The notes under the pieces were generated by a model. The model did no database searches, was not told where the DNA came from, and was given only the letters and a program-made list of their open reading frames with translations. A DNA stretch of 64,000 nucleotides. Origin: Microbulbifer sp. ALW1 (GTDB lineage Bacteria; Pseudomonadota; Gammaproteobacteria; Pseudomonadales; Cellvibrionaceae). A program made the translations under genes and the position numbers. Within the stretch, counting starts at the first letter, position 1, and the number at the start of each line of letters is the position of its first letter. The stretch covers positions 3,776,001-3,840,000 of the forward strand of contig NZ_CP047569.1 in the NCBI RefSeq assembly GCF_009903625.1, written 5' to 3'. Of the stretch, positions 16,332-17,676 are shown in pieces.

Positions 16332-16499
16332 AGTTACCTTGGGCATATAACGCCGCCGGCAGGGGCAGCTTACCTTGTGCGCTTTTTGCGCGAAAATGGG
16401 AGCGCAGCGACCCGCGTAAAACGTGCACAAGGTAAGCTGTCCCACGGAGGGCCGTAGGCCTGGAGTAAATTGCCCGGCCTTGTATGGTTGTTCTTGTCT

Positions 16500-16706
16500 C
16501 ATTTCGGCGTTGTACGCTCTTCTCGCTAACGGGTAAATTGAGACCCACCTTCGGCGGCCACCGAAGGCCTTGTTTATCACAGTTCGCTGCCCGGCCGGTT
16601 CATAAAGACCGATAACAAGTATGAACGTGACAAACACTCACTAGGCATAACTCGAATAGTCATGTGGGCCTCGAGCCCGAATAGCAAGGCGGAGATAGCT
16701 TATCTT
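16500..16706 (+). ncRNA. candidate IS110 bridge RNA in the element's left end
   Basis: The non-coding leader holds a stem-loop ccttcgg-cggcca-ccgaagg (16548-16567), then GGCCTTGTT (16566-16574), GCCCGGCC (16589-16596) and GATAACAAG (16611-16619). The first two match the target strand (gcccggccttgtta) and the third is complementary to it, as expected for a target-binding loop. ATAGTCA (16656-16662) repeats the element's right terminus at 17666-17672, a possible donor match. The position and the matches are seen; the RNA itself is inferred. Confidence 0.5.
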
Positions 16707-17648
16707 ATGGAATATAAAGAGATCAATGTCGGTATCGATACCAGCAGCAACCAACTCGATATCTATGTGAGACCCACTGGCCAATTCTTTAGCGTCAATA
16801 ACGATAGAGACGGTATTAAACAAGCTGTAGATAAAATACTGGCACTCAAACCCACTAGAGTATTGATTGAATCTACTGGACGACTGGAAATGGATTTTGT
16901 GTGCGCTGCCGATAAGCGAGGGCTGCCCATCGTTGTCTGCAACCCTTCACAAATTCGGAACTTTGCAAAGTCATCAGGACGGATCGCTAAAACCGACAAG
17001 CTAGATGCCATGGATATTGCCCATTTTGGCGAGGCCATGAAACCAGCGCTAACAGTAATAAAGCCGGAAAAGCTGCGAGAAATCAGTGACTTACTTGCCG
17101 TCCGTAGCCAGTGTCTTGAGATGAGTACTATGCAGAAGAATCGCCTCAAGAGAATGCCGAAGTCAGTCCACGATCCTATCCGAAAAATCCTTACCGCGAT
17201 CAAGAGCGAACTACTTAAAATCGACAAGCAACTCGACAAGTTAATCAGCAGCGTAACGGAGTGGAAGGAAAAGCGAGATTTGCTGCTAAGTGCGAAAGGT
17301 GTAGGCAACGTCCTGGCTTACACACTCATGAGCGAGCTTCCTGAACTTGGAAAACTTAATCGTAAGGAAATAGCTGCGCTTGTTGGTATCGCACCGATGA
17401 ACCGCGACAGCGGGCGCTTTCAGGGGAAGCGGTTCATTCGGGGCGGGCGTCACCGTGTTAGAACGGTTCTATTTGTTTCGATGATGTCTGCGATCCAATG
17501 TCACCCAAAGCTGAAACCAATGTACGAGCGTATGGTTGCCGCTGGGAAACCAAAGAAAGTCGCTATCGTCGCGTGTATGCGCAAGCAACTCACAATCCTC
17601 AATACCATGGTTAAGAACAACACTCATTGGGATGAAAAAATGGCTTAA
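16707..17648 (+). CDS. IS110-family DEDD transposase
   Basis: A 313-residue protein starting MEYKEINVGIDTSS (a GTG-type start at 16662 would be longer). N-terminal RuvC-like acids are in NVGIDTSS, VLIESTGRLE and KTDKLDAMD; the C-terminal transposase_20 domain has LSAKGVGNVLAYTLM and APMNRDSGRFQGKR with the catalytic serine. Acts on its own element. No frameshift seen, so it is probably active. Confidence 0.93.
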   Translation: MEYKEINVGIDTSSNQLDIYVRPTGQFFSVNNDRDGIKQAVDKILALKPTRVLIESTGRLEMDFVCAADKRGLPIVVCNPSQIRNFAKSSGRIAKTDKLDAMDIAHFGEAMKPALTVIKPEKLREISDLLAVRSQCLEMSTMQKNRLKRMPKSVHDPIRKILTAIKSELLKIDKQLDKLISSVTEWKEKRDLLLSAKGVGNVLAYTLMSELPELGKLNRKEIAALVGIAPMNRDSGRFQGKRFIRGGRHRVRTVLFVSMMSAIQCHPKLKPMYERMVAAGKPKKVAIVACMRKQLTILNTMVKNNTHWDEKMA

Positions 17649-17676
17649 TCACTTGACGGAGAACCATAGTCACTTG

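Follow-up and report, generated by a model that had tools for sequence, protein, structure and literature searches.

How an insertion sequence (IS) comes to lie at one exact base of an integron attC site is the question raised by IS-A (16481..17672, plus strand), an IS110-type insertion sequence of 1192 bp, excluding its CT cores, that interrupts an attC of a cassette array in Microbulbifer sp. ALW1. The stretch of DNA analysed, hereafter the window, has 64,000 nucleotides (contig NZ_CP047569.1, positions 3,776,001 to 3,840,000 of the forward strand). Very probably, IS-A uses a bridge RNA like that of IS621 to insert at the R'' side of attC. The basis for this reading is sequence comparison, which covers the target position, the guides, a covarying fold and the attC-type sites found throughout the lineage; transcription, ribonucleoprotein formation and chemistry are inferred. 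Loci and genomes are cited by L and G numbers.

The element and the attC that it interrupts

The first-pass annotation, made from the letters of the window, had described a 1192-bp element in an attC with CT at both junctions, and all coordinates are confirmed: the left junction reads GCCCGGC-CT/TGTATGG (core at 16479-16480) and the right one ATAGTCA/CT-TGTTA (core at 17673-17674). The interrupted attC has a left part with R' and the central palindrome (16345..16480, minus strand) and a part with R'', the inverse core (17673..17684, minus strand). From the asymmetry of attC against its consensus, we take the cassettes in the window to be read on the minus strand, which places the cut on the R'' side, beside TAACAAG. 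The insertion swaps the R'' box next to the attC palindrome for an element end and may in this way hinder cassette excision. The predicted DNA fold of the window attC is uninformative on function, the empty site and the occupied left part having the same fold and energy (-37.3), with R'' and R' unpaired even when the site is empty.

The transposase/recombinase has 313 amino acids (16707..17648, plus strand) and carries the domains DEDD_Tnp_IS110 (PF01548, 65.7 bits for a cut-off of 29) and Transposase_20 (PF02371, 57.3 bits for a cut-off of 21.3), together with a match to NF033542 (188.8 bits, cut-off 140). An alternative in-frame ATG at 16662 would give 328 amino acids, but this start lies inside the guide RNA. 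Residues D11, E55, D97, D100 and S235 are invariant among 12 aligned relatives, and the D, E, D, D and S required for catalysis in IS621 (D11, E60, D102, D105 and S241; PMC11208158) are all retained in the alignment.

As the target class is the same, the element might simply belong to the known IS1111-attC group. This is highly improbable given its anatomy: the non-coding sequence lies upstream of the gene and not downstream (226 nt against 24 nt, the IS110-type layout), subterminal inverted repeats of 11-13 bp are not present in IS-A, where the longest repeat has 7 bp (TATGGTT), the solved recombinases closest to its transposase are IS621 and ISCro4, and the nearest named element in the transposase tree (see below), of the few included, is ISEc32. 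IS4321 lies outside the clade of IS-A, its branch being very long (3.73), in a tree that is without any IS1111-attC transposase. The order of the guides, described in the next section, also argues against membership.

Guides and fold of the leader

The non-coding left part of the element, previously put at ~220 nt and here measured at 226 nt (16481..16706), encodes a predicted bridge RNA on the plus strand, as are all features of this section. A 5' hairpin CCTTCGG/CCGAAGG (helix 1, 16548..16567) is followed by the target-binding stem-loop (helix 2, 16571..16636, with arms at 16571-16586 and 16623-16636), in which an inner hairpin (helix 3, 16596..16611) separates two target guides. The left target guide TGCCCGGCC (16588..16596) is identical to the top strand of the left target, and the right target guide ATAACAAG (16612..16619) is the complement of the right flank; its TAACAAG (16613-16619) complements CTTGTTA of the window copy, and all of its 8 nt complement CTTGTTAT, the right flank of three sister copies in the same genome. 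Further on, the left donor guide ATAGTCA (16656..16662) is identical to the right end of the element, with which it co-varies (ATAGTCA, ACAGTCG, ACAGTCA), and after the donor-loop hairpin GGGCCTCGAGCCC (helix 4, 16666..16678) comes the right donor guide ATA(G)CAAG (16681..16688), a discontiguous complement of the left end CTTGTAT that had not been noticed before. Discontiguous pairing of the right donor guide is known for IS621 (PMC11208160), and the order of the whole leader (left target guide, inner hairpin, right target guide, left donor guide, donor hairpin, right donor guide) is also that of the IS621 bridge RNA (PMC11208160). In IS110-type seekRNAs the match to the bottom strand precedes, and in IS1111 the order is reversed (PMC11187229); with its bottom-strand match first, the IS-A leader has the IS110-type order and not that of IS1111.

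Copies of the target and of the right terminus had already been read in the leader, and GCCCGGCC (16589-16596), GATAACAAG (16611-16619) and ATAGTCA are indeed there. A further word in that list, GGCCTTGTT (16566-16574), is incidental stem sequence shared between hairpin 1 (3' arm) and the stem of the target loop (5' arm). It was rejected as a guide because it persists in Microbulbifer relatives whose left targets differ (L008, L010, L011) and because L071, in an attC-type site, is without it. Against the flanks of its own copy (...TTGCCCGGCCT on the left, CTTGTTAAA on the right), the leader matches a left word of 9 nt and a right word of 7 nt, lengths that are reached by 21/5000 and 179/5000 dinucleotide-type shuffles of the leader, respectively, and on both sides at once by 1/5000; with the right flank of the sister copies, the right word has 8 nt and the figures are 17/5000, 22/5000 and 0/5000. 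The matches exceed those of shuffled leaders, contrary to one outcome that the first-pass annotation had held open.

The common fold was obtained with RNAalifold from 29 diverse leaders (alignment A4, 29 of 32 chosen; L080, L012 and L120 were left out, the pattern of the script having failed on them) and has four helices. Two-sided changes are found in 22/26 pairs, for a shuffled mean of 14.6 pairs, and in 168 cells versus 43.8 in shuffles, and 93.4% of the cells are paired versus 73.1% in shuffles (0/500 as high in each case); further pair types are less striking, with 20/500 shuffles as high. For helix 2, the stem of the target loop, such changes affect 11/12 pairs with 97.4% of cells paired, and for helix 1 they affect 6/6 pairs with 81.5%. 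When partners are slid by 1-3 columns, paired cells fall to 43.8% or less and cells with two-sided changes to at most 55, a comparison in which the common fold is favoured since it was derived from the same 29-leader alignment that was used to score it. A scan of the window against Rfam at gathering cut-offs gave 0 matches, so that curated bridge RNA families are of no help here. A two-loop fold, the lack of which would have spoken against a bridge RNA, is present with strong covariation, and the earlier proposal that the leader encodes a two-loop bridge RNA directed at attC is supported by this covariation, by guide matches above shuffles and by the sites of the relatives.

A putative promoter for this RNA would arise where the ends of the element meet. 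The right end has a -35-like TTGACG (17650..17674, plus strand) and, once joined to the left end, gives a predicted sigma70-like promoter, TTGACG/TATGGT with 18 bp spacing. By the rule of the script, the best hexamer pair spans the circle junction in 66/66 distinct junctions, with a mean score of 9.7/12 versus 7.2 in mononucleotide shuffles.

Insertion sites and their agreement with the guides

Relatives were collected from 58 related genomes, from a scan of genome contigs (best 80 of 576 loci), from a class-wide search of 274 genomes and from plasmids, and they come from Microbulbifer, Neptuniibacter, Marinobacter, Marinobacterium, Colwellia, Pseudoalteromonas, Photobacterium, Thiothrix, Methylophaga and others. 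Among the 93 loci in which both ends were located by pattern, TGTTA (or a one-base shift of it) directly follows the core in 81, and AACGY, the R' signature of attC, lies 45-170 nt to the left in 72, versus 781/3140 random positions of the same loci; among the 91 insertions with a readable guide, a count that omits L092 and L093, AACGY is again found in 72. Relatives inserting at sites unrelated to attC had been named beforehand as a finding that would tell against the proposal, and the sites are mostly of attC type. The two cores of a copy are unlike in 17/91. In 14 of these 17, CT stands on the right and a different core on the left, a pattern to be expected when the target core is retained at the left junction and the donor core at the right one.

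In a tree of 116 distinct transposases (open reading frames of at least 270 amino acids; sites labelled from the right flank only), 82, IS-A included, form one clade with a support of 100/99, mostly from Gammaproteobacteria. By right flank, 71 of its members are labelled attC; another 3 carry this label from the guide only, 6 have other labels and 2 are unknown. Among those six, masking accounts for L092, a misreading by the pattern for L093 (its right end was misplaced, and by eye CTTGTTATG comes next) and a shift of one base for L046, and the genuine departures from an attC right flank are L081, L103 and L112. Outside the clade, the relatives that were read target other sequences. Beyond the right junction of L077, L103 and L112 stands CTTGTATG or CCTGTATG, a sequence similar to the left end of elements of this kind, and these flanks are perhaps tandem or nested insertions.

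The genome of the host (one contig, 4.68 Mb) has four near-identical copies of IS-A, three of which differ from the window copy by 2-4 nt, as well as IS-B, a 41% relative that is present twice. All six interrupt an attC-type site, each at the same base: the IS-A copies (4/4) in TGCCCGGC-CT-TGTTA and the two of IS-B in TGCTTGCG-CT-TGTTA. A genome search for TGC-N5-CTTGTTA gave 30 free sites, four of which equal TGCCCGGC, and the reversed control pattern gave 6; these 30, a few of which may be due to chance, and the 6 interrupted ones make up 36 sites, a count confined to sites with both TGC and CTTGTTA. The left guide is matched exactly by 8/36 sites, and all 4 IS-A copies are among these 8 (P = 0.0012), so that IS-A occupies 4/8 exact-match sites and 0/28 of the other listed sites. 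In the window, 3/16 sites are exact matches, and two free sites identical to the guide target are at 21300..21314 (TGCCCGGCCTTGTTA; G000:C1:3797300) and 27251..27265 (G000:C1:3803251), both on the plus strand. With only 8/36 sites in the genome matching exactly, the first-pass view of a landing site at every cassette joint was too strong.

Two loci of this genome, L002 and L004, are diverged copies of one cassette with a near-identical element at the same base. They differ by 35 mismatches and one gap over 1762 aligned nt, and because 6 of the 35 fall in the 1192-nt element, the elements appear younger than the cassette split, which points to recurrent hits on one attC or to gene conversion. 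That the element moved with its cassette was considered and rejected, from the distribution of the mismatches and from the L004 element being nearer to the window copy (2 nt). These loci bear on the possibility that arrays, generally regarded as containing much dispensable DNA, are just permissive regions where surviving copies are seen in the absence of specific targeting. Such hitchhiking is extremely unlikely: the elements of L002 and L004 appear younger than the split of the two cassettes that carry them, the position relative to TGTTA is identical to the base in the 81/93 loci, and the guide matches the occupied subtype within a genome, as detailed below.

The right guide and the right target agree at 6.72/8 positions in 38 distinct pairs (111 rows) versus 4.62 when shuffled (0/20000). 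This count omits rows without a right flank, with a guide segment other than 9 nt or with N, as well as L093, L155, L156, L159, L027, L028 and L024, and it retains the badly fitting L112 and L125. For guides other than TAACAAG (25 rows, 22 distinct) the agreement is 6.77 versus 3.88 (0/20000), and where the guide is TAACAAG, CTTGTTA is at the right junction in 79/86 rows. Matched changes are seen in the clade in L088 (TAACGAG/CTCGTTA), in L102 (TAACCAG/CTGGTTA) and in L094 and L096 (TAACAAA/TTTGTTA). Also in the clade, L086 of Paraglaciecola hydrolytica has a changed right guide CAAAGAAG and the right flank CTTCTTCT (6/8 match by eye), with a left guide that matches its own left flank, and is likely a natural retargeting away from attC. 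The joint change of right guides and targets, in the attC variants of L088, L094 and L102 as well as at the unrelated sites of L115, L137, L144, L150 and L153, makes it very unlikely that recognition by the recombinase is of the attC hairpin in its folded form, with the similarity of the leader as a by-product; attC sites are strong palindromes, as this explanation would have it, but inserts with unlike left flanks have the junction sequence in common.

Agreement on the left side is looser. The left guide scores 3.74/6 in 42 Microbulbifer copies versus 3.07 shuffled (0/20000, or 16/20000 for 33 distinct pairs), 6.01/8 in 100 rows of the clade (83 distinct) versus 4.46 (0/10000) and 6.31/8 in 45 rows outside Microbulbifer versus 4.36 (0/10000), the clade score allowing an offset of 0-2 in data and shuffles and omitting rows with a non-attC right guide. 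Because attC left halves resemble each other, occupied and free sites were compared within genomes. The 24 occupied sites of eight genomes score 3.02/5 versus 2.01 for random listed sites of the same genome (0/20000), and the same test without the genome of IS-A (18 sites) gives 3/20000. It takes sites with TGC and a core CT, the site of the broken copy L059 included, and omits L008, L009, L012, L013, L031, L038, L043, L045, L046, L047, L051 and L062 (a different core or register, or a right end that was not seen); G003, G019 and G030 were left out, G010 is without a qualifying insert, and for G028, 22 of 24 free sites were listed.

Several observations weigh against a bridge RNA directed at attC. 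The left target guide includes the first core base and leaves the second unmatched, and the 7-nt right word of the window copy is, taken alone, not rare in shuffles. Single leaders fold weakly better than their shuffles (z of -1.47 and -1.99, with 11 and 8 of 200 as good), which is the reason for the use of the alignment. Despite a TAACAAG guide, 7/86 right flanks depart from CTTGTTA, and the right guides of L053, L101 and L112 fit less well. AACGY is missing from 19/91 left flanks, of which L047, L083 and L084 are still attC-like by eye and L016, L081, L085 and L127 are not; the latter perhaps arose through later rearrangement. In a Shewanella survey, IS110 elements are described in integron arrays, none of them interrupting attC (PMC9229058). 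Lastly, both IS-B copies score 1/5 for the left guide, and L041 and L052 are in sites that match their left guides badly. Since the within-genome test is positive while IS-B scores 1/5, the left guide seems to bias the choice of cassette subtype, but tolerantly. The right guide is mostly fixed on the conserved inverse core of attC (TAACAAG).

Three side observations follow. By eye, an open reading frame pair resembling orfA/orfB of the IS3 type (window 18105-19273, minus strand) adjoins the next attC, and a 1400-bp stretch that includes it (window 17953-19352) recurs in L064 at 97%. In L005, the stretch after IS-B (AGTCGCTTGTTAGGGCTAGG...) is tandemly repeated 221 bp on (reverse strand positions 2446 and 2667), with 224 bases identical starting at GCTTGTTA. 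A perfect 34-bp loxP lies within a broken IS-B relative (L059:2165-2198, G032:C2); it is presumably a mate-pair linker left in the assembly, and this broken copy may therefore be an artefact.

Proposed mechanism and comparison with known systems

In the mechanism proposed, IS-A would circularise and its joined ends would form the promoter that transcribes the leader, whose RNA would be bound by the recombinase. Base pairing would follow: to the left of the CT core, the bottom strand would be bound by the left target guide, whereas the right target guide would bind (CT)TGTTA of the top strand and the donor guides the circle junction. A serine-dependent strand exchange at the CT core would then insert the element. 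A wider reading, which we regard as unlikely, makes of the clade an old and durable RNA-guided parasite of integrons, its right guide locked on bases needed by the integrase and its left guide following the subtypes, with a loaded attC that still recombines and an element that rides its cassette. The sole hint that an element-loaded cassette may still move comes from L039 and L040 (G021), where one cassette with its element is present twice in one genome. Their homology of 1646 bp stops at AACGCC of an R' site on both sides and includes 5 mismatches, 3 of them inside the element within 55 nt; because the L040 element is closer to L038 (1 nt), an independent insertion or gene conversion may be at its origin.

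The guides vary enough in nature that the lineage could be used to test how bridge RNAs retarget. Guidance by the leader predicts landing positions in chromosomal integrons, with R'' split from the rest of attC and the cassette perhaps frozen, and tools for insertion specifically at attC might profit from a right guide that is nearly fixed combined with a left guide that is free.

Among known systems, IS621 is alike in its DEDD/Ser recombinase, upstream leader, 5' stem loop and CT core (PMC11208160, PMC11208158), and also in having the target loop before the donor loop, the same guide order and the discontiguous right donor guide; a promoter across the circle junction is described for IS621 and predicted for IS-A. 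It differs in that it targets repetitive extragenic palindromic (REP) elements, in a transposase identity to IS-A of about 28% and in a right target guide of 4 nt instead of 7-8 nt, although longer right target guides exist in other IS110 orthologues (PMC11208160). The nearest relatives outside the clade are ISEc32 and its neighbours (Nitrospira, Syntrophorhabdus, Longilinea), with the same guide layout where the leader is readable and, in the neighbours read (the target of ISEc32 itself aside), right guides and targets unrelated to attC.

The papers of the IS1111-attC group itself are reportedly those of Tetu and Holmes in 2008 and of Post and Hall in 2009. This group (ISKpn4, ISPst6, ISPa21, ISPa25), from which attC-targeting elements were already known (PMC11187229, PMC11616780), shares attC as the target class, the exact cut position aside, and its tested members are RNA-guided by a seekRNA (PMC11187229); the "IS110" disrupting attC in PMC11616780 is ISPa21, of the IS1111 group. 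It differs in its downstream non-coding region, subterminal repeats and reversed guide order (PMC11187229). The retroelements named in PMC9229058 and PMC10011109 are likewise RNA-based at attC, yet unrelated. An IS110-type lineage directed at attC was not found in the literature searched, a search outside which lay subscription journals, preprints and ISfinder. Targeting of attC on the IS110-type side is apparently a second origin besides that of the IS1111-attC group, and IS-A would seem to be a natural parasite of integrons that is programmed by RNA.
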